Virus record (IMG/VR): IMGVR_UViG_3300021964_000719
Span: 1 to 20,411 of that record
Length of the DNA stretch: 20,411 nt
DNA from: a virus
Strand: one strand, 5' to 3'
A program made the position numbers and the translations under genes. Each line of letters opens with the position of its first letter. Within the stretch, counting starts at the first letter, position 1. Shown piece by piece: positions 2,773 to 17,408 of the stretch. Below the pieces are notes generated by a model. The model had not been told where the DNA came from. It saw nothing but the letters and a program-made list of their open reading frames with translations, and did no database searches.

Positions 2773-3204
2773 ATGAAGAAACGAGTATACGTCGATATGG
2801 ACGGTGTGCTGGTGGACTACGAAAGCGGCTTCGACGGGACACCCGACGAGTTGCACGGATACGACAACACGCCCAACGTCTTCAGTAAAATGCTGCCGCT
2901 GCCTGATGCCCTCGAGGCTTTCCGCACGCTGGCAGAGAAGTTTGACGTTTACGTCTTGTCTACCGCGCCGTGGAGCAACCCCAGCGCGTGGACCGACAAG
3001 GCCAACTGGATCAAGAAGTATCTTGATGATGTCGCCCACAAACGACTGATCCTGACGCACAACAAGGCACTGTGCATCGGTGACTACCTGATAGACGACC
3101 GAACCGCCAACGGCGCCGGTGAGTTTACAGGTGAACACATCCACTTCGGCACGGACCGATTCCCTGACTGGGACGCGGTGCTGGCCTATTTACAGGAGGA
3201 ATAG
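2773..3204 (+). CDS. 5'(3')-deoxyribonucleotidase, HAD superfamily
   Basis: The product is predicted to remove phosphate from deoxyribonucleoside monophosphates, shaping the nucleotide pool in the infected cell. All HAD motifs are visible in order: DMDGVLVD at residues 8-15 (nucleophile D8, general acid D10), LSTAPW at 62-67 with S63/T64, K98 in THNKAL, and IDDR at 107-110 with D108/D109. The 143-residue length and small cap fit the NT5C-type family (PF06941). AGAAAGGAGAATGG before the ATG is the shared early leader. It heads a tightly packed group that also contains a nuclease at 4106. Confidence 0.85.
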   Translation: MKKRVYVDMDGVLVDYESGFDGTPDELHGYDNTPNVFSKMLPLPDALEAFRTLAEKFDVYVLSTAPWSNPSAWTDKANWIKKYLDDVAHKRLILTHNKALCIGDYLIDDRTANGAGEFTGEHIHFGTDRFPDWDAVLAYLQEE

Positions 3205-3670: not shown

Positions 3671-4109
3671 ATGCGACCTCGATTTTCTAAAAATAATCGA
3701 GCAGGACCCAGTGAGGCCCGTGGATCTCTTAGGAGGCCCACAGGGGCGTTTTGAAGAACCCTTTGAGGTCTACGCCATGGTTCAAAAACAGGGCTTCGGC
3801 GTCTCCACAGACGCCGTGGCGTGCGTTGCCTATGCCCAGTATGTGCCAGAGGAAGAGTCAGACCTCGAGGACATCGCGCACATGGAACCCGGCGAGATCG
3901 TCGTGCCCTACTCGCTTTGGTCCCATCAGAAGGGAGCCGGGCGCCGCCTGATCAACGCCTTGTTATACAAACTGAAGGACGAGTTCCCAGTGATCACACT
4001 GTCGCCGAAAACTGACATGGCGCGGCGGTTCCACGAGTCCAACGGCGCCGTCTTGTTTCAAGAGAACGAGACTTCCTACAACTTCCGATATCCGAGGAGC
4101 AGAGAATGA
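3660..4109 (+). CDS. GNAT-like N-acetyltransferase (149 aa)
   Basis: The protein matches the general plan of phage GNAT-fold proteins. An acidic strand region (HMEPGEIVVPYSLWSH) is followed by QKGAGRRLINALLYKL at residues 90-105. There QKGAGR fits the acetyl-CoA pyrophosphate-binding motif (Q/R-x-x-G-x-G/A). Next come ITLSPKTDMARRFHESNGA, the typical last strand and helix, and ETSYNFRY. Such enzymes transfer an acetyl group to a protein, small molecule or nucleobase; the substrate cannot be told. Members in phages often lack proven activity. It overlaps both neighbours (11 and 4 bases). Confidence 0.7.
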   Translation: MLIKCDLDFLKIIEQDPVRPVDLLGGPQGRFEEPFEVYAMVQKQGFGVSTDAVACVAYAQYVPEEESDLEDIAHMEPGEIVVPYSLWSHQKGAGRRLINALLYKLKDEFPVITLSPKTDMARRFHESNGAVLFQENETSYNFRYPRSRE

Positions 4110-4522
4110 CTTATCACTACAACGCGGAGATCATCCGCTGCGTCGATGGCGACACCGTGGATGTCTGGGTGGACGTGGGTTTCGACATGCGAATCAAGCA
4201 ACGCCTTAGGCTGCATGGCATCGATACGCCCGAAACACGGACCCGTGATTCGGTAGAAAAGAAGGTCGGGCTGATGGCCAAGGCCCGCGTTCAGGAGCTG
4301 CTCGAGGTCGGCAAGTCCTATCCGATCTGGACCGTGGAGAAAGGCAAATTCGGCAGATATCTTGCCCGGATTTACCTCGACGACAACCGAGATCAGTGTG
4401 TTAATGACATGCTGGTCGAGGAAAATCTTGCTTTAATTTATTTCGGCGGCTCCAAGGCCGATGTCAAAACTGCCCTGAAGCACATGTACAATAGGCTCAG
4501 GAAAAAAGGAGTAGAACTGTGA
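4106..4522 (+). CDS. Thermonuclease (staphylococcal nuclease homologue)
   Basis: A Ca2+-dependent-type nuclease of the SNase fold, predicted to cut DNA or RNA. The active-site set is complete: DGDTVDV at residues 14-20, R35 in RLRLHGIDTPETR (33-45) with D40, T41 and E43, and R84 in KFGRYLARI. Length (138 residues) fits a single domain. There is no signal peptide, so it should act inside the host cell, perhaps in host DNA breakdown or phage DNA processing, with the upstream nucleotidase handling released nucleotides (inference). It is coupled to its neighbours by ATGA at 4106 and GTGA at 4519. Confidence 0.88.
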   Translation: MTYHYNAEIIRCVDGDTVDVWVDVGFDMRIKQRLRLHGIDTPETRTRDSVEKKVGLMAKARVQELLEVGKSYPIWTVEKGKFGRYLARIYLDDNRDQCVNDMLVEENLALIYFGGSKADVKTALKHMYNRLRKKGVEL

Positions 4523-5171: not shown

Positions 5172-6248
5172 ATGACCAGCGGATCAAAACGAATGGCTGA
5201 ATTGTTTAACAATAGTCCCGTCGAACCGGACAAAAAGAAGCGGAAACTGGAGGAACGCCTGCAGGCCGACGTGGGAACTCTGGACGACCAGAAGAAAGCT
5301 GTCACGCCGCAGCAATGGAAGTTCATCACAGAGTTGGTGGACGGCGAGGGTAAGCAAACCCTGAAGCAGGCGGCCATCAATGCAGGCTACAACACCAAGA
5401 CAGCACATAAGGACGCGCATGCCCTGACAGACCCACGCCAGAACCCGCAAGTGGTGGCAGCTATCCAGCAATATCGAAAGGATGTGGCCGAGAAATACGG
5501 CACGAATATCGAGCGGCATCTACGCGACCTGCAGGATATCCGCGACGCCGCATTACAGGCAGGCAACTATGGCGCGGCTGTCACTGCAGAGTATCGCCGG
5601 GGACAGGCACTGGGCACGATCTACGTGGACAGAAAAGAGATCAGGCACGGCACGATCGATAGTATGAGCGTTGATGAGGTGCGCCGTAAGCTCGAAGAGA
5701 TCAAGGCGATGTATGGTGGGCCGCCGCCTAAGCAAATCATTGACGTGACGCCTGAGGATCTTGAGGATCTTGAGGATCTTGAGGAGGCACCCGAGGACCC
5801 TATGCCTGAAGTTGAGGATGACGTACCATTGCCTTTATCGATTATTGAGCAGATAAGAGATGCCGAAAAATCTCGTACAGAAAAATCTCGTACAGATGAA
5901 AACTCTCGTACAGATGAAAAATCTCGTACAGATGAAAACTCTCGTACAGATGAAAACCTGAGTAATGGCGAAAACCCCGGAATCGAACCTGTATCAAAAG
6001 GTAAAGCAGGGCCTGCCGACGGCGGTGATAACCCGGCTGGAGAATCGGGTGGGGCTGGGTCTACCGGATTGCCTGATAGCGATCCCGAACGAGGGTTTCG
6101 TGTTGGTGGAGCTGAAAGTGGTGGACCGTGGGAAGAAGGTACGGCTGAGTCCGCATCAGGTGGCGTTCAATCTGAAGCACGGGATGATGGGGTTGCCGAC
6201 TTGGATATTGATCCAGTATCACCCAAAGGGCACCAGAAGCCGCACTGA
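5172..6248 (+). CDS. terS: Terminase small subunit, with long acidic disordered tail (358 aa)
   Basis: Predicted to recognise phage DNA and load it on TerL. Residues about 45-90 (TPQQWKFITELVDGEGKQ, then TLKQAAINAGYNTKTA) form the helix-turn-helix of the Terminase_2 type. They are followed by long helices (AAIQQYRKDVAEKYGTNIER, then LQDIRDAALQAGNYGAAVTA) as in oligomerising small terminases. GGAG at 5161-5164 fixes the start. After about residue 190 the chain is low complexity: PEDLEDLEDLEE, SRTDEN-type repeats at 232-262, then G/E/S/P-rich sequence. That last part is read in another frame as the nuclease gene at 5965, so its composition is probably a by-product. TerL is 3.7 kb away. Confidence 0.75.
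   Translation: MTSGSKRMAELFNNSPVEPDKKKRKLEERLQADVGTLDDQKKAVTPQQWKFITELVDGEGKQTLKQAAINAGYNTKTAHKDAHALTDPRQNPQVVAAIQQYRKDVAEKYGTNIERHLRDLQDIRDAALQAGNYGAAVTAEYRRGQALGTIYVDRKEIRHGTIDSMSVDEVRRKLEEIKAMYGGPPPKQIIDVTPEDLEDLEDLEEAPEDPMPEVEDDVPLPLSIIEQIRDAEKSRTEKSRTDENSRTDEKSRTDENSRTDENLSNGENPGIEPVSKGKAGPADGGDNPAGESGGAGSTGLPDSDPERGFRVGGAESGGPWEEGTAESASGGVQSEARDDGVADLDIDPVSPKGHQKPH
5754..5780 (+). repeat. Three 9-bp tandem repeats (GAGGATCTT)
   Basis: GAGGATCTT occurs three times head to tail and encodes EDL-EDL-EDL in the acidic linker of the terminase small subunit. The copies are identical at DNA level, so they expanded recently, probably by slippage. Confidence 0.8.
5865..5957 (+). repeat. 15/18-bp tandem repeats in the terminase tail
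   Basis: One 15-bp unit (5865-5879) is followed by four 18-bp units (5880-5951) of form GAAAAMTCTCGTACAGAT and a partial GAAAAC. In the terminase frame they encode SRTDEN/SRTDEK units at residues 232-262. In the nuclease frame each 18-bp boundary gives an ATG, and the frame from 5896 runs for 21 codons to a TGA at 5959-5961, three bases before the nuclease start. Confidence 0.75.
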
Positions 6249-6913: not shown

Positions 6914-7339
6914 TTATATCTCTGCCTTACTCAACTCTCGATAGACCACTTCGTTCGACCAACGGCTGAAACAGGCCCACCACTGATTCTCGTCTGTCGC
7001 ATCCTCGATACCGAACTCTTTAGCGATCTTGGCCTTTGTGGCCTCATACACCTCATCGCTAATCGTGCGCTGTGCGTGAACGAACTTGGCCTGCGGTAGC
7101 CCTTCGATGTTGTTGCTGTACTCGTACAGATCGATCATCCCGTCGAAATGTCCGTATTGATATTTTCCAGTGATCTCTGTGACCTTATCCCGCACTGGAC
7201 CGTTGGTCCAGCTAACGTCTACACCGTCGCCGCCCGCAAAATTTCTTGACCGTACAGAGAACTTGACGTTCGGAAAGGCCTTCTTCAGTTCCGCTCTGAT
7301 TAACTTGGCCGCTTGGGCCGCTTCAGTAAGTTTTTTCAT
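6914..7339 (-). CDS. LPD29-domain-like phage protein (141 aa)
   Basis: The first 60 residues, with AKLIRAELKKAFPNVKFSVR followed by SRNFAGGDGVDVSWTNGP, look like the LPD29 domain (large polyvalent protein-associated domain 29). That domain occurs alone or inside large phage and mobile-element polyproteins and has no proven activity. The middle (YQYGHFDGMIDLYEYSNN) and the end (DENQWWACFSRWSNEVVYRE) also fit the conserved pattern of stand-alone phage members. Its ribosome site AAGGAAGGAG is encoded in the end of the upstream gene; that gene's TGA lies one base before this ATG, so coupling is likely. Confidence 0.7.
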   Translation of the reverse strand: MKKLTEAAQAAKLIRAELKKAFPNVKFSVRSRNFAGGDGVDVSWTNGPVRDKVTEITGKYQYGHFDGMIDLYEYSNNIEGLPQAKFVHAQRTISDEVYEATKAKIAKEFGIEDATDENQWWACFSRWSNEVVYRELSKAEI

Positions 7340-9696: not shown

Positions 9697-9712
9697 TGTT
9701 TCACGTGGAACA
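9697..9712. promoter_or_regulatory. parS: parS-consensus partition site
   Basis: TGTTTCACGTGGAACA fits the universal parS palindrome TGTTNCACGTGNAACA at all fourteen fixed positions. In bacteria this site loads the CTP-dependent clamp ParB near the chromosome origin. No parA or parB gene is in this window, so the ligand would be host ParB or a phage protein encoded elsewhere. The site ends two bases before the -35 box of a candidate late promoter, so a role as operator is also possible. Confidence 0.8.
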
Positions 9713-9947: not shown

Positions 9948-11429
9948 ATGCAAGCAGCTCAAATACCTCCTGAGATAGAAGCGGAGCAACTCAAGCTAGA
10001 ACTCAGGCTGGCCCTGCTAGAAGCACAGGGACACGGGCGTGATTCCTTTCTAGGTTTCTCCCGCTACGTCTGGCCAGAGGCAATCCTGTCCAGTCACCAC
10101 GAGAAAATGGCTGCGGCCTTTGATCGTATAGCCGACGGCACTCTAAAGCGCCTGATAATCAACATGCCGCCCAGACACACGAAGTCTGAGTTTGCATCTT
10201 ACCTGCTTCCGGCATACATCATGGGCCGTCGTCCGACGACCAAGATCATTCAAGCAACTCACACAGGAGAACTTGCTGTCCGTTTTGGCCGGAAAGTCCG
10301 TAACCTGATGGAGCTGGACACCTATCAGCAGTTATTTGACGCGGTGCAGCTCAAAGCGGACAGCAAGGCTGCTGGAAGATGGGACACGAACCACGGCGGG
10401 GAGTACTTTGCTGTTGGTGTAGGCGGTGCGATGACAGGTCGTGGCGCGGACCTCTTGATCATTGATGATCCCCACTCTGAACAGGACGCCCAGTCCCAGC
10501 TGGCGCTAGAAAATGCGTGGGAATGGTATACCTCTGGACCCCGGTCTCGACTGCAGCCCGGTGGCGCGGTAGTCATTGTGATGACCCGTTGGGGCACGAA
10601 GGACCTGACTGCACGCCTGATCAAGGCCCAGACCTCACATAACGCGGACCAGTGGGAGGTTATTGAGTTTCCTGCTGTGTTTGACGAGGACAAGGAAAAC
10701 GAGCGCCCGCTATGGCCATCCTTCTGGAAACTGGAGGAACTCAAGGCTGTCCGGGCGTCGTTATCGGTCCAGAAATGGAACGCCATGTACCAGCAGCGCC
10801 CCACTGCGGACGAAGGCGCGATACTCAAGCGAGAGTGGTGGAATATTTGGGAGCATGACTATATGCCCCGTCTGGACTACATCATCCAGTCTTATGACAC
10901 TGCCTACTCGAAAAAAGAGACGGCTGACTTTTCTGTCATCACCACGTGGGGCGTGTTCTATCCTAGTGAGGATTCGGGGCCACATATCCTGCTGGTAGAT
11001 GTAAGAAAGGGACGCTATGACTTTCCTGAGCTTAAACGGCTGGCCAAGGAGCAGTATGACTACTGGCAGCCCGATAATGTCCTGATCGAGGCCAAAGCGA
11101 CAGGGACCACGCTTCAGCAGGAACTGCGTCGTGTCGGTATTCCTGTCACGATGTACTCTCCCGGTGGTCGGCGAGCGGGGCAGGATAAGATATCGAGAGC
11201 CAACTCTGTCGCACCGATCATTGAGTCCGGCATGGTCTGGGCGCCTGAAACTCAGTGGGCTGAAGAGCTGATCGAGGAATGCGCGGCCTTTCCGAATGGC
11301 GATAACGACGACATGGTGGACAGCACGACGCAGGCCCTGATGCGGTTCCGAGCAGGCAATTTCATCTCGCTGTATTCGGACGAACCCGAGGAACACTCTA
11401 CCGGAGACCTTGTGCCCGAGTATTATTAG
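9948..11429 (+). CDS. terL: Terminase large subunit (493 aa)
   Basis: The DNA-packaging motor with ATPase and nuclease activities. The Walker A-like segment is PPRHTKS at residues 74-80 and Walker B is LLIIDDPH at 169-176 (D173/D174). The coupling strand AVVIVMTRWG is at 207-216. The RNase H-like nuclease has SYDTAYSKKETADFS at 315-329 (D317), VLIEAKATG at 378-386 (E381) and NDDMVDS at 453-459 (D455). Full length for the Terminase_6 / Terminase_6C arrangement. It works with the small subunit at 5172 and docks on the portal at 15054. No frameshift or inserted element is present. Confidence 0.93.
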   Translation: MQAAQIPPEIEAEQLKLELRLALLEAQGHGRDSFLGFSRYVWPEAILSSHHEKMAAAFDRIADGTLKRLIINMPPRHTKSEFASYLLPAYIMGRRPTTKIIQATHTGELAVRFGRKVRNLMELDTYQQLFDAVQLKADSKAAGRWDTNHGGEYFAVGVGGAMTGRGADLLIIDDPHSEQDAQSQLALENAWEWYTSGPRSRLQPGGAVVIVMTRWGTKDLTARLIKAQTSHNADQWEVIEFPAVFDEDKENERPLWPSFWKLEELKAVRASLSVQKWNAMYQQRPTADEGAILKREWWNIWEHDYMPRLDYIIQSYDTAYSKKETADFSVITTWGVFYPSEDSGPHILLVDVRKGRYDFPELKRLAKEQYDYWQPDNVLIEAKATGTTLQQELRRVGIPVTMYSPGGRRAGQDKISRANSVAPIIESGMVWAPETQWAEELIEECAAFPNGDNDDMVDSTTQALMRFRAGNFISLYSDEPEEHSTGDLVPEYY

Positions 11430-11471: not shown

Positions 11472-14400
11472 ATGCCCGGTCCTTCTGCTCGAGAGATGCT
11501 CTCGAAGCTGCCTTTGCGTATGGCAAACGGCGGTTCTATAAATCTTGCCCAAGAATCTGCTTTAGATCAGTCTGCTGCCTATAAACGCGCTCTTGAGAGC
11601 GGCGGCCTAGAGGGCGTGCAGGCTTATTACGCCAACCTGAGAGGGCTTGCTGACAAGTACATGGCTGGAGAAGACCAGTTTGCTGGCAATCAGCCTGTAG
11701 GCGCTGAAGCTTACAATATCATGCTTGAGGCAGGGATCAGCAACACGGACCTCATCAACGCCGGTGTTGGGCAGAATGTCTTGAATAAGATATTCACTAC
11801 TCCTGCCACTGGGCCAAGACTTGACCTGCCAACCACTGTGGAGTCCGCGTATACGGCTAATCCTGTCCTAGCGGCAGAGGTTGCTGCGCGTTCAGCAACG
11901 GGCGTGGACGGGGTAGCGTCATTGCAAAAACAGGGCCGTGAGTTTGTAGCGAACATCCAGCAAGACGGCATAACCCCTGAGGAGCAAAAGCTTTTAAGAG
12001 AGCTTGCTTTGGAAGGCGGTTATACGCTGGCAGACATTCAAGCGGCGGGCGTGGACCCCAGCATCTTGTTTAATGTCCCTGAGGCCGAAAAGCCCCCTGT
12101 AGTGCCCCCTGTAATAAACCAATTTCCCCAGACCCAAGACACTTATACTGCCCCCACTGTCTACCAGCCAATTGACTTTGACCCCGGCATTTATGCGGCA
12201 GGCGAAGAAGCGTTGGACCGTGCGTTCAGGGAGAGCGACCCACGGACCGAGGTCACAGAAGATATCTTCGGTGAGGACCAGTTAGTAGGCTTTGACTACG
12301 TGCCCGCCGCAAAATTGCTCTCGGCCACCGGATCAGGATTCAGCTTCACGCCACCCTCTGTCACGAGCAGGCCAAGGAGTTTGATGTCCACGGATCAGCT
12401 TGGTCGATACACCAGAGGCCGCGCAGCTCAGGACCTGCGCCAGCTCACTGGAGGTAGGGAAGAGGATTACATGCGCTACAAGCCCCTTCTTGATAGGACG
12501 GGCAGCTACGGCGGCGGCCTGTCTAGGTCCCAGCTCTATGCTCTGATGAGGCAGGAGCAGGCAAGAGAGGCCCGTGCTGCGGCAGACGCGGGGGCCGGAG
12601 CGTTTACGCCGGGCCAAGCCCCACGAACCGGGACCATACAGGACTACATTGCCCTTAATCCTGATGTAGTAGAGGACTTTAATACTCAGATAGATGAGGG
12701 CCGTATGTCTTCTGACATGACCCTTGAGCAGTTCGCCGCGAACCACTACAACACTTTCGGGCTGAAGGAGATGGAAGCGGGCACGAGAAACCCGTTTAGC
12801 CTGACCAGCGGATACGCAGGTGCCACAGGAGGAGTAAACGCTCCTTTACAGGCCAGAGACCTTAGGGACCCGACAATGGGAACTAGGTTCTTTGCCGAAG
12901 GTGGTGCTGTAAAAAAGCCTGAAGCCGTGCCCGTGGACCAAGAACCACGCGACACGGCTCAGACCGAAAGTGCTTCTATGCTTCAGAACATCATGTCTGG
13001 CGTAAGTCAGATTCCCGGCACTGTTTATGATTATGGTAAAGACATTGTGCAGAGTGAGTCCCCACTTACTGAGCTGGGCGAGGATGTAGATTTTTTAGGT
13101 AAAGCTATGTATACGGGCCTAAAAGAGGACCCTTTAGGCTTTACCTTGGACATGTTGCCCGTGGTCGGTGAGATACGATCCGGCATGGACGCGGACAAGT
13201 ACTCTGACCTTGCCAATCAAGCAGAGGCTGCAGGCAATAAGGACTTGGCCGACACCTACAGACAGATTGTTGCTATGGCAGCGGCTGGTGTTGCTCCGAT
13301 GGCGGGCATGGGCGCGAGGGCCGGGAAGCGTGCTGCGATCAGCGCGGCAGAGGAAGCGGCCACTACGTCGGCTAGGGGAATGCTGGACGATATAGCTGGA
13401 GCTTCAGCCAGAGCGAGAGTAGAGACTCAATTGATGTCCGAATATCCCGCTGAACAAGTTGCCAGTATTTCTTATGTGGCCAGTGATCCTCTAACTTTAA
13501 AATTCAACAATGAGATAGCTGCGGACCCAGAGGCAGCTATACGGCGATACGAAAACATAGGGGAAACTAACGGAGGCAAGATTCTTAATCCTGATCTAGT
13601 TAGAGAACTGAGTGAAGAGTACAGAGCGGATAGGTCTTTGTCTGGGCGAGTCCATGAGCCTTCAAGCGCCTTAACACGACTAATGTATGACAGAAAAGTA
13701 GCGGAGACGATGGGCCAAGAGGGTAACTGGATATTTACTGGGGGAGGCCCTGCTTCAGGTAAAACTGCGGGACTCTCAAAAGAGGCAGAGAATGCTGCGG
13801 ATTTAGTTATGGACGGCACCATGGCTAAATTCAATAAAGTAGATGACCAACTTGAAAAAGCGCTAGTTTCTGGCAAAACGATCAATATAGTTTATATAGA
13901 CCGTGATCCGATAAAAGCCCTTCCTCTAGCTTTGGATAGAGCCATGGAAACAGGGCGTCCGGTAAGGCTTGAAGATTTTATGCGAATGCACCGTGATGCA
14001 AGGCAGTCCATCAAAAAACTTTACGACAAGTACAAAGATAATGACGATGTGACAATAGATATAATAAGTAATCAAAAGGGCATCGGAGAGCAAGAACCCA
14101 TAAACATTGATCAAATTAGCACCATGGACTATGATAAATCGTTGGAAGAAGGTTTTGAGCTTCTCCAGCAATTTAGAAAGGATGATAAAATTAATGAAAA
14201 AATCTACACCGCCACTAAAGCCGACTACGAACCCGTCGCCAAAGACAGCACGGCAGAAGTCAGAGGAGATCAGCCGACTGTTGATGCAAGGAATCAAGCA
14301 GATGGGCAAAACCTCCAGAGCAGACAAGATAGCGTAGAGCCACTAGGCGTAGGTATTGACGAGTCTTTAGCTGCAGGCCAAAGACTTAGGAACTACAGTA

Positions 14401-15044
14401 TTGAGCAACTAGACAACTTAGACAGTCTGGCAACCAATGCCACTGCAGGGACAAGAGCAGCAGATGCCCTTATCAACGCACCTGTTGAAGCGGGTACTAA
14501 AGTGGGTATCCGTCTTAACCTTAACTCAAGAATCCCCGATGCCCCCCGAGGCTTAGACAAGCTTCAGACTTTGCATAAGAATAATTTCAACGGGAAAGCT
14601 TTATCCTATATCCCCTATGCCACTGTAGAAAACGGCACCTTTAACGTAAGCCAGACTGGCCGCAGAAACATAGTGGCTAAGATTTCAGGGATGGATGTGC
14701 CTGAAGCTAAGTCTAAATTCCCTGCCATGTCGGTTGACGGTAATTACGCACCTGACAGAAACGTGCTTAGAGAAGGCGGCGACATTGTTGAAATTGGGTT
14801 CAACCCAGCTGCTCACCACTTGTTTATAGACATGAACACAGGCCAAGCGGTTAAATCGTTTGACGTGGCCACTGTCGTGGGCGACAGGGTGTATGCCAAG
14901 GGTATCACCTACCACAAGAAATCCGAGGCGCCTGAGCCAGTAGCCGCGTCTGACGGCACAGAACTCCCGAGCAATGTGCGCTATCGAGAGATGAACCGTG
15001 GCGGTATGGTTAGCCGCAAAGACGACAACAGAACATATATCTAG
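11472..15044 (+). CDS. Large multidomain protein with zeta-toxin-like kinase domain (1190 aa)
   Basis: AAGGGGA (11458-11464) precedes the ATG. I see four parts. The N-terminal third is helical and low complexity. Residues 392-430 contain YIALNPDV...HYNTFG, a short motif pair seen in surface and secreted proteins. Residues 570-640 are alanine- and glycine-rich and weakly hydrophobic (MLPVVGEI, AMAAAGVAPMAGMGARAG). Residues about 720-870 hold FTGGGPASGKT (755-765, Walker A), VMDGTM, and IVYIDRDP...LDRAMETGRPVRLEDFMRMH, the order found in zeta toxins. The last 180 residues (HHLFIDMNTGQAVKSFD, VVGDRVYAKGITYH) resemble C-termini of large polyvalent phage proteins. It is probably a virion or ejected protein (inference from place and size). 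Confidence 0.65.
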   Translation: MPGPSAREMLSKLPLRMANGGSINLAQESALDQSAAYKRALESGGLEGVQAYYANLRGLADKYMAGEDQFAGNQPVGAEAYNIMLEAGISNTDLINAGVGQNVLNKIFTTPATGPRLDLPTTVESAYTANPVLAAEVAARSATGVDGVASLQKQGREFVANIQQDGITPEEQKLLRELALEGGYTLADIQAAGVDPSILFNVPEAEKPPVVPPVINQFPQTQDTYTAPTVYQPIDFDPGIYAAGEEALDRAFRESDPRTEVTEDIFGEDQLVGFDYVPAAKLLSATGSGFSFTPPSVTSRPRSLMSTDQLGRYTRGRAAQDLRQLTGGREEDYMRYKPLLDRTGSYGGGLSRSQLYALMRQEQAREARAAADAGAGAFTPGQAPRTGTIQDYIALNPDVVEDFNTQIDEGRMSSDMTLEQFAANHYNTFGLKEMEAGTRNPFSLTSGYAGATGGVNAPLQARDLRDPTMGTRFFAEGGAVKKPEAVPVDQEPRDTAQTESASMLQNIMSGVSQIPGTVYDYGKDIVQSESPLTELGEDVDFLGKAMYTGLKEDPLGFTLDMLPVVGEIRSGMDADKYSDLANQAEAAGNKDLADTYRQIVAMAAAGVAPMAGMGARAGKRAAISAAEEAATTSARGMLDDIAGASARARVETQLMSEYPAEQVASISYVASDPLTLKFNNEIAADPEAAIRRYENIGETNGGKILNPDLVRELSEEYRADRSLSGRVHEPSSALTRLMYDRKVAETMGQEGNWIFTGGGPASGKTAGLSKEAENAADLVMDGTMAKFNKVDDQLEKALVSGKTINIVYIDRDPIKALPLALDRAMETGRPVRLEDFMRMHRDARQSIKKLYDKYKDNDDVTIDIISNQKGIGEQEPINIDQISTMDYDKSLEEGFELLQQFRKDDKINEKIYTATKADYEPVAKDSTAEVRGDQPTVDARNQADGQNLQSRQDSVEPLGVGIDESLAAGQRLRNYSIEQLDNLDSLATNATAGTRAADALINAPVEAGTKVGIRLNLNSRIPDAPRGLDKLQTLHKNNFNGKALSYIPYATVENGTFNVSQTGRRNIVAKISGMDVPEAKSKFPAMSVDGNYAPDRNVLREGGDIVEIGFNPAAHHLFIDMNTGQAVKSFDVATVVGDRVYAKGITYHKKSEAPEPVAASDGTELPSNVRYREMNRGGMVSRKDDNRTYI

Positions 15045-15053
15045 GACAAGACC

Positions 15054-17408
15054 ATGCCAGTAGATAAAGTAGTGAACCTTGCTCCAAACACCGAGATCAC
15101 TGTGGTTGAGGAGATGGAGGATATGCCTGAAATCGAGGTGGTCCTTGACGGCGAAGAGCTTGAAATAGACATGTCCCCAGAAAAAGACCCGGACTTCTAT
15201 GACAATCTTGCTGAAGACATGGACGACGGCGATCTGGCGCGAATCTCATTAGATTTACTGGCGTTTTTTGATGCCGACAAGAGTTCTCGAGGTGACTGGG
15301 AAAACATGTACGCCAAGGGCCTTGATCTATTGGGCTTGAAGATGGAAGAGCGCACCCGCCCATTCCGTGGTGCAACAGGTGCTGTTCATCCAATGCTTAC
15401 CGAATCTATTGTCCAGTTCCAAGCGCAGGCGTTTAAAGAGCTGATGCCAGCCGGTGGGCCTGTTAGAACTCAGACAATGGGCAAGGAGACACTGGATAAA
15501 GTCCAGCAGGCGTCTCGTGTGCAGGATTTTATGAATTACCAGATCGGCACGGTGATGAAAGAGTACACACCGGAGTTTGATCAGCTGTTGTTTTATGTAG
15601 GCTATGGCGGTTCTGCCTTCAAAAAAGTCTATTACGACTACCCACTAGGCCGAATGGTCAGCCGTGTAGTGCTTCCTGACGACCTGTATATCCCCTATAA
15701 CGGCTCTAGCGTAATGTCAGAGTGCCGTCGCATCACCCATCGTCTGACGATGGACTCAAATGAGTTTAAAAAGCGGGTGCTGGCAGGCGAATACCGTGAC
15801 ATTGAGGTCGATCCTGACGGCGCAGGTGCAAATGTAGACCAGATTGGTGCTGCAGTAGATCGGTTAGTGGGCATAGAAGCCTCTGGAGAGCCTGAAGAGC
15901 TATTTTTACTAGAGTTTCAGGTCGATTTAGACATCCCCGGTTACGAAGACGAGGACGAAAAAGGCAATCCAACCGGAATTAGACTGCCTTATGTCGTGAC
16001 AGTGGACGAAAACAGCGGACAAGTGCTAAAAATCTGCAGAAACTGGAACGAGGACGACGAATACAAGTGTCGCAAAGAGTATTTTGTGCATTATGTGCTG
16101 GTAGAAGGCCCCGGAGCCTACGGTTTGGGCTTTGTGCACCTAATTGGTGGCCTTTCTAAGACCGCTACAGCCGCCCTCAGGCAGCTTTTGGACGCAGGCA
16201 CGCTATCTAACCTTCCTGCTGGCTTTAAAGCCAAGGGAGCGCGTATAGCGGATGATAATAACCCCATTCAACCGGGTGAGTGGCGCGATATTGACGCTGG
16301 CGGGGCAGAACTGAGCAGCTCTTTGTTACCAATGCCCTACAAAGAGCCAAGTCAGACCCTTTTCTCGCTGCTAGGCTTCACTGTGGACGCCGGTAAGCGT
16401 CTTGCAAGCACTGCGGACATGCAGGTAGGGGATGGTAATCAACAAGCCGCTGTGGGCACCACAGTAGCTCTGCTTGAGCGTGGCTCTATGGTCATGTCGG
16501 CCATCCATAAGCGCCTGTACTACGCCCAGACCCAAGAGTTCGAGATGCTGTTTAAGGGATTCGGCGAGTATCTGCCGGATGAGTACCCGTATGACGTGCC
16601 CGGAGCTTGTCGTTCAGTCAAGCGTTGCGACTTTGACAACATGGTCGCTGTGCTGCCCGTAGCGGACCCTAACATCTTCTCTGCTGCCCAACGTATTACC
16701 TTGGCGCAAACGCAGCTCCAGCTAGCTCAGAGCGCCCCACAGATGCACAACATGTACGAAGCGTACTATCGCGTGTATCAGGCAATGAACGTGCGGGATA
16801 TCGACGGCATCTTGAAGGTACAGACCAACCAGATGCCGAAAGACCCAGCCAGCGAGAACATTGATGTAGTAGACGGCAAACAGCTGCAGGCTTTTGCTGG
16901 CCAGCAGCATGACTCTCATATTGCATCCCACTTGATTATGGGCATGTCGCCGTTACTGCAGGCGAACCCTATGGCAGCTACTGAGCTGCAGAAGCATATT
17001 CTGGACCATATCAAGCTCAAGGCTGAAGAGGATGCCGAAGCTGAATTGTTTGAGCAGTACGGCAGTGATCCAGACAAGATGATCTCTGACATGCAACGTG
17101 AAGCGACAGTGGCGTTGAAGGTCTCAGAATACATGATGGACATGAAAGCAATGCAGTCTCAGTTGATGGGCGGCGAAGAAGGTGGTCAGGACCCTGTAGT
17201 GGCACTGAAGGCTCAGGAGCTGCAGCAGCGTGCCACTAAGGATCAGGCTGAAATTGCATTGAAGCAGCAGGGACTACAGAACGAGCAAATGCGTATCCAA
17301 GAGAACGCTCAGGCCAATGATGAGCGCATTGCGTCTCAGGAAAAGATTGCAGCTGAAAGGACAGCGGTGGCCAGAGAGCGTATTTACGCGCCAAAGGGAG
17401 GCAGGTAG
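15054..17408 (+). CDS. Portal protein, P22-like (784 aa)
   Basis: Forms the dodecameric ring at one head vertex through which DNA enters and leaves. The N-terminal region (SRGDWENMYAKGLDLLGLKM, then RTRPFRGATGAVHPMLTESI and VQFQAQAFKELMPAGGPV) and the FDQLLFYVGYGGSAFKKVYY segment are typical of the long P22-type portal family. The C-terminal 150 residues are helical and glutamine-rich (AEIALKQQGLQNEQMRIQEN), fitting the barrel or helical crown of that family. Length is in the usual 700-800 range. An acidic 60-residue N-terminal extension is also seen. The stop overlaps the next start by one base. Confidence 0.88.
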   Translation: MPVDKVVNLAPNTEITVVEEMEDMPEIEVVLDGEELEIDMSPEKDPDFYDNLAEDMDDGDLARISLDLLAFFDADKSSRGDWENMYAKGLDLLGLKMEERTRPFRGATGAVHPMLTESIVQFQAQAFKELMPAGGPVRTQTMGKETLDKVQQASRVQDFMNYQIGTVMKEYTPEFDQLLFYVGYGGSAFKKVYYDYPLGRMVSRVVLPDDLYIPYNGSSVMSECRRITHRLTMDSNEFKKRVLAGEYRDIEVDPDGAGANVDQIGAAVDRLVGIEASGEPEELFLLEFQVDLDIPGYEDEDEKGNPTGIRLPYVVTVDENSGQVLKICRNWNEDDEYKCRKEYFVHYVLVEGPGAYGLGFVHLIGGLSKTATAALRQLLDAGTLSNLPAGFKAKGARIADDNNPIQPGEWRDIDAGGAELSSSLLPMPYKEPSQTLFSLLGFTVDAGKRLASTADMQVGDGNQQAAVGTTVALLERGSMVMSAIHKRLYYAQTQEFEMLFKGFGEYLPDEYPYDVPGACRSVKRCDFDNMVAVLPVADPNIFSAAQRITLAQTQLQLAQSAPQMHNMYEAYYRVYQAMNVRDIDGILKVQTNQMPKDPASENIDVVDGKQLQAFAGQQHDSHIASHLIMGMSPLLQANPMAATELQKHILDHIKLKAEEDAEAELFEQYGSDPDKMISDMQREATVALKVSEYMMDMKAMQSQLMGGEEGGQDPVVALKAQELQQRATKDQAEIALKQQGLQNEQMRIQENAQANDERIASQEKIAAERTAVARERIYAPKGGR

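Follow-up and report, generated by a model that had tools for sequence, protein, structure and literature searches.

A predicted zeta-type kinase of rewired topology in an exchangeable cassette of a phage protein encoded between terminase and portal

Introduction

Which function does a zeta-type kinase domain serve within a large protein that is encoded between the terminase and portal genes of a phage? The question is raised by the stretch of DNA analysed here (the window), 20,411 nucleotides of the IMG/VR virus record IMGVR_UViG_3300021964_000719 from a water-dwelling phage. One uninterrupted reading frame on its plus strand encodes a polyvalent-type protein of 1190 amino acids, hereafter denoted the slot protein, with 42 bases between the end of TerL and its start and 9 bases between its end and the start of the portal gene. 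A sequence-only reading of the window had described a large protein with a zeta-toxin-like P-loop domain in this place; both the gene position and the assignment of the domain hold, the latter by a match to the Pfam family Zeta_toxin above its cut-off. Coordinates of all features are listed in the table.

Features of the slot locus in the window. Equivalent residues of ng_zeta1 are given in brackets.
Feature	Position	Strand	Basis or remark
Terminase large subunit TerL, left neighbour	9948..11429	+	phrog_38, E 2.7e-110; PF17289
Slot protein, 1190 aa, polyvalent-type	11472..15044	+	Conserved place between TerL and portal
Slot protein residues 1-484, N-terminal part	11472..12923	+	Common to differently armed relatives
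FAEGGAVKKPE, residues 474-484, motif at left cassette boundary	12891..12923	+	Homology to four relatives ends at 12924
Swapped cassette, residues about 485-1180	12925..15013	+	Inside without DNA similarity to L006, L009, L011, L016
Zeta-type kinase domain, residues about 665-925	13464..14246	+	PF06414; profile versus 6eph; AlphaFold2 model
NPDLVREL, residues 706-713, putative catalytic Asp D708 (D56) and R711 (K59), ahead of P-loop	13587..13610	+	Alignment
P-loop GGGPASGKT, residues 757-765, K764 (K115)	13740..13766	+	Motif position, alignment
VMDGTM, residues 779-784, D781 (E133)	13806..13823	+	Motif position, alignment
RAMETGRPVRLEDFMRMH, residues 823-840, R823 (R175), R829 (R181), H840	13938..13991	+	Motif position, alignment
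C-terminal domain, residues about 956-1173, phrog_586/PF25735-like	14337..14990	+	Recurs in large phage proteins
C-terminal peptide GGMVSRKDDNRTYI, last 14 residues	15000..15041	+	Peptide conserved in relatives of different content
Portal protein, right neighbour	15054..17408	+	phrog_1216, E 1.3e-39; annotated portal of DSL-LC04 70% identical

The slot between TerL and portal

The close relatives are all metagenomic contigs, many of them incomplete; in the IMG/VR relatives the genes follow one another as in the window, from TerL to the slot protein, portal, GroES and onward. Wherever TerL and portal are both visible the slot is occupied (26 of 26 close relatives), by proteins of 364–2048 amino acids, four of which contain a zeta domain; in every zeta relative of the group with visible flanking genes the position of the slot is constant. 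Other contents are ART-PolyVal, GNAT and, in phage DSL-LC04, PcfJ. The slot of pelagiphage HTVC023P holds a 201-residue protein only, nothing lies between TerL and portal in Roseobacter phage CRP-901, and Caulobacter phage RW has merely a tRNA gene there. As the contents vary among relatives or are missing altogether, the slot is accessory.

In the slot protein Zeta_toxin is the sole Pfam family above cut-off. Neither Pfam, PHROGs nor NCBIfam gave a match to a MuF domain, the NCBIfam search returned no match at all, and no LPD domain was detected in the slot protein itself. The N-terminal part shares 76–94% amino acid identity with four relatives (loci L006, L009, L011 and L016), all of which are devoid of zeta. 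Residues of about 389-443 within this part (12636-12800, IQDYIALNPDV...HYNTFGLKEMEAGTRNPF) presumably resemble repeats of bacterial surface proteins.

Related kinase domains co-occur with ddrB-ParB and ART-PolyVal (L061) or with LPD22 (L059), and bacterial genomes yielded one weak relative only. In L034 (4546-8188) the zeta part and the C-terminal domain are distributed over two overlapping frames (942 and 279 amino acids), a split or frameshifted gene. The "thymidylate kinase" at 7078-9714 of L216 (MW202577.1) holds a related zeta domain with 26% identity, and its annotation looks wrong. A ParB-like insert in L005, proposed by eye, received no support from Pfam.

Elsewhere in the window a solo LPD29 (large polyvalent protein associated domain 29) is encoded outside the slot protein on the minus strand (6914-7339, E 8.7e-22), an NT5C-type deoxynucleotidase and a staphylococcal-nuclease-like protein on the plus strand (2773-3204 and 4106-4522). 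A TerS-like protein (5172-6248, +) displays a tandem SRTDEN/SRTDEK repeat near residues 235-265, and a GroES-like co-chaperonin (PF00166; 17912-18376, +) is found downstream of the portal throughout the group. About 240 bases ahead of TerL, the segment TGTTTCACGTGGAACA (9697-9712) deviates by one mismatch from the consensus of the bacterial parS site. Sites of this kind with at most two mismatches occur 25 times in 2.35 Mb of loci, some of which overlap, versus once in 2.62 Mb of shuffled sequence; in 9 of 17 distinct loci such a site lies 22–528 bases ahead of TerL, and L189 has five. Use of the host ParB is possible, judging from these sites; no paper on it was found.

The zeta-type kinase domain

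The slot protein matches PF06414 with 31.4 bits (curated cut-off 22.3, E 1.6e-7), and its relative in L007 with 54.9 bits. The match covers profile positions 92-184 of 199 only, since in the slot protein the fold is permuted in its first half. By sequence, the best solved relative of the domain is ng_zeta1 (phmmer E 3e-4, 19% identity), which is also the best match of a profile built from ten relatives (6eph, E 5.5e-18). ng_zeta1 is the UDP-sugar kinase of the gonococcal epsilon1/zeta1 system, in which two sequence blocks are swapped, placing the catalytic Asp56 and Lys59 ahead of the P-loop Lys115, and in which Asn75 contacts UDP-MurNAc (6EPG/6EPH/6EPI, PMC5923241). The kinase domain of the slot protein is permuted in the same manner, with the catalytic-Asp block (NPD, D708) located N-terminal to the P-loop (K764). 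The motifs FTGGGPASGKT, VMDGTM and RAMETGRPVRLEDFMRMH of the sequence-only reading were thus found in place, including K764 as the P-loop lysine; the domain is larger than the residues 720-870 assigned to it there, and the claimed zeta-like order is half right only, since it applies to these motifs and fails for the catalytic block, which precedes the P-loop.

An AlphaFold2 model of residues 665-945, built from an alignment of only 10 sequences, has a pLDDT of 85 and a pTM of 0.80. Its top structural match is again ng_zeta1 (Z 26.6, rmsd 3.4 for 263 aligned residues; Foldseek E 2.2e-13), followed by classical zeta (Z 11.6) and AvrRxo1 (4Z8V, Z 11.3); classical epsilon/zeta and PezAT toxins (1GVN, 2P5T) have Z values of 11.6 and 10.4. 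Adenylate and UMP/CMP kinases reach Z values of 6–8 only, so that a simple kinase or nucleotide kinase, the outcome that structure prediction might have revealed according to the sequence-only reading, was rejected. Model and alignment together make the assignment as a rewired ng_zeta1-type zeta kinase with the whole putative catalytic set well supported.

Apart from gaps, D708, R711, K764, D781, R829 and H840 are the same in all of 49 distinct related domains, the first three each in 48 of 48 ungapped relatives, while R823 is an arginine in 41 of 49. With a dN of about 0.01 and a dS of 0.05–0.09 towards the nearest relatives, the dN/dS ratio is roughly 0.1–0.2, which indicates purifying selection on the kinase domain. 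Given the invariant active site, the predicted fold and the low dN, it is very probable that the domain works as a kinase of the rewired type. In the profile alignment Ser724 occupies the position of ng_zeta1 Asn75, and the substrate may therefore differ from that of ng_zeta1.

Cassette exchange and the C-terminal end

Outside of positions 12925-15013 the DNA of the window is 91–97% identical to L016 and 95–96% to L006, whereas inside it is unrelated. Both breakpoints recur in L009 and L011, whose flanks are 83–91% identical; for all four loci the identity of the flanks near the breakpoints is 83–98%. The left break directly follows FAEGGAVKKPE and the right one falls inside the C-terminal peptide. 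The GC content is 0.486 in the cassette and 0.438 in its zeta part, compared to 0.52–0.56 in the N-terminal part, TerL and portal; the lower value fits an acquisition of the cassette. The portal protein of L016 is 99% identical to that of the window, and hence two near-identical phages bear different cargo.

The C-terminal domain is 64–67% identical to domains that are combined with other partners in phage proteins of L018-L024. Its match to PF25735 is weak (E 0.019) and its model is of low confidence (pLDDT 49); a structure search with this model picked large phage proteins, including those with zeta and ART-PolyVal, and no related solved structure was found. The pattern GGxVERVxNDxRKYI forms the C-terminal end of many slot proteins with different content. 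Constraint at the DNA level was excluded for this peptide, as synonymous codons are free to vary in the relatives; selection consequently acts at the peptide level, and the peptide may serve to address the slot protein. The shorter GGx[VI] was rejected as a slot-specific motif: it occurs 131 times in slot proteins versus 39 in shuffles, yet TerL and portal proteins are enriched as well (122 versus 45).

Proposed role and alternative explanations

Our best explanation, to which we assign a probability of about 0.6, treats the slot as an accessory place for cargo and the slot protein as a phage protein of the polyvalent type, which would be packaged, ejected and act as a kinase on a UDP-amino-sugar or a similar compound. 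The slot protein would be made together with the late packaging genes and enter the capsid near the portal, possibly helped by its C-terminal peptide. It would then leave with the DNA into the newly infected cell and there phosphorylate a UDP-amino-sugar or similar nucleotide-linked metabolite at the expense of ATP, by which peptidoglycan precursors might be drained or a host response disarmed early in infection. Gene position, cassette swapping and shared architecture render such a virion-borne effector plausible. An antitoxin would be superfluous, as the producing cell is about to lyse. We regard it as hardly credible that the zeta domain is the toxin of a classical epsilon/zeta addiction module, although the fold speaks for it: the domain is embedded in a 1190-residue protein next to packaging genes, the gaps of 42 and 9 bases leave no adjoining small gene, epsilon-like or other, and no antitoxin family was found among the ten other open reading frames of the window. 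On the missing epsilon-type antitoxin the sequence-only reading was therefore correct.

The enzyme might also be the same and its target a different one, namely NAD or another nucleotide-like molecule; the attack would then be on a host defence based on NAD or nucleotides and not on the cell wall. AvrRxo1, which has a related fold, phosphorylates NAD, and it is structurally close to the model as well (Z 11.3); in addition, the Asn75 contact of ng_zeta1 is lost in S724 and its K59 is replaced by R711. However, no other structure comes nearly as close as the UDP-sugar kinase ng_zeta1 (Z 26.6), and D708, K764, R823 and R829 match its catalytic Asp, its P-loop Lys and its two substrate-phosphate-facing Arg residues, which leaves a target of the NAD kind possible yet doubtful. 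We consider it unlikely that the late-made protein stays unpackaged and acts inside the producing cell, for instance by halting wall synthesis to aid lysis. TerL itself is not a stable part of the virion, and the slot gene abuts TerL and carries no proven packaging signal; on the other hand, delivery agrees better with the cassette variation, with the partner domains ART and ParB in relatives and with the context in which polyvalent proteins have been described (PMC5512222). A literature search on the virion content of this phage group returned nothing. A main role of the slot protein in the assembly of head or portal, with the kinase part as a passive remnant, would agree with an N-terminal part conserved across differently armed relatives, but is very unlikely in view of the invariant active-site residues and the low dN/dS; moreover, the more distant CRP-901 and RW lack a protein gene between TerL and portal, so the slot protein is dispensable for assembly there.

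Beyond the single phage, the delivery reading can be extended, tentatively, to a widespread group of aquatic phages, in which a dedicated, recombining TerL-portal cargo slot might use the conserved C-terminal peptide to direct exchangeable enzymes, among them a rewired zeta kinase, an ADP-ribosyltransferase and an acetyltransferase, into virions that would deliver them to the next host. Natural phage pairs that differ mainly in the cassette, and the short C-terminal peptide, offer handles on the loading of enzymes into capsids.

Comparison with known systems

The kinase domain shares with ng_zeta1 the rewired topology and the same order of D, K/R, P-loop K, acidic residue and two Arg. It differs by its location within a 1190-residue phage protein, the absence of an epsilon partner and the exchange of N75 for Ser; the C-terminal domain of the slot protein, with its low-confidence model, may or may not resemble the OB domain of ng_zeta1. 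The finding takes the ng_zeta1-type kinase from toxin-antitoxin modules to putative phage cargo, with the active site kept and the antitoxin absent. Classical epsilon/zeta and PezAT have the core nucleotide-kinase fold in common with the slot protein, but their catalytic block follows the P-loop instead of preceding it and an antitoxin is present. AvrRxo1 likewise displays the kinase fold, with a similarity far lower than that of ng_zeta1.

Like the MuF polymorphic toxins of temperate phages (Jamet et al. 2017, PMC5576092), the slot protein combines a common N-terminal part with a toxin-like part that varies, and its gene has portal and terminase as neighbours. Unlike these, it has neither a MuF domain nor a downstream immunity open reading frame, and its C-terminal end is conserved too, which makes the variable part internal.

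In 2017 Iyer et al. predicted zeta-like kinases both in polyvalent proteins of plasmids and in MuF fusions of phages, and proposed that these kinases travel with the DNA and have the wall as their target (PMC5512222). Given that prediction and the relatives with ddrB-ParB, ART-PolyVal and LPD22, the present finding lies within a known theme. A limited literature search found no description of the rewired ng_zeta1 subtype in phages, of a fixed slot between TerL and portal in which cassettes are exchanged internally, or of the C-terminal peptide. Like the proteins of that study, the slot protein is large and multidomain, bears a zeta-type kinase and belongs to a packaging and portal gene context; it differs by the lack of MuF, by the permuted ng_zeta1 subtype, by the C-terminal peptide and by the fixed slot with its exchange of cassettes. 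This system makes the 2017 prediction of injected kinases that target the cell wall directly testable.
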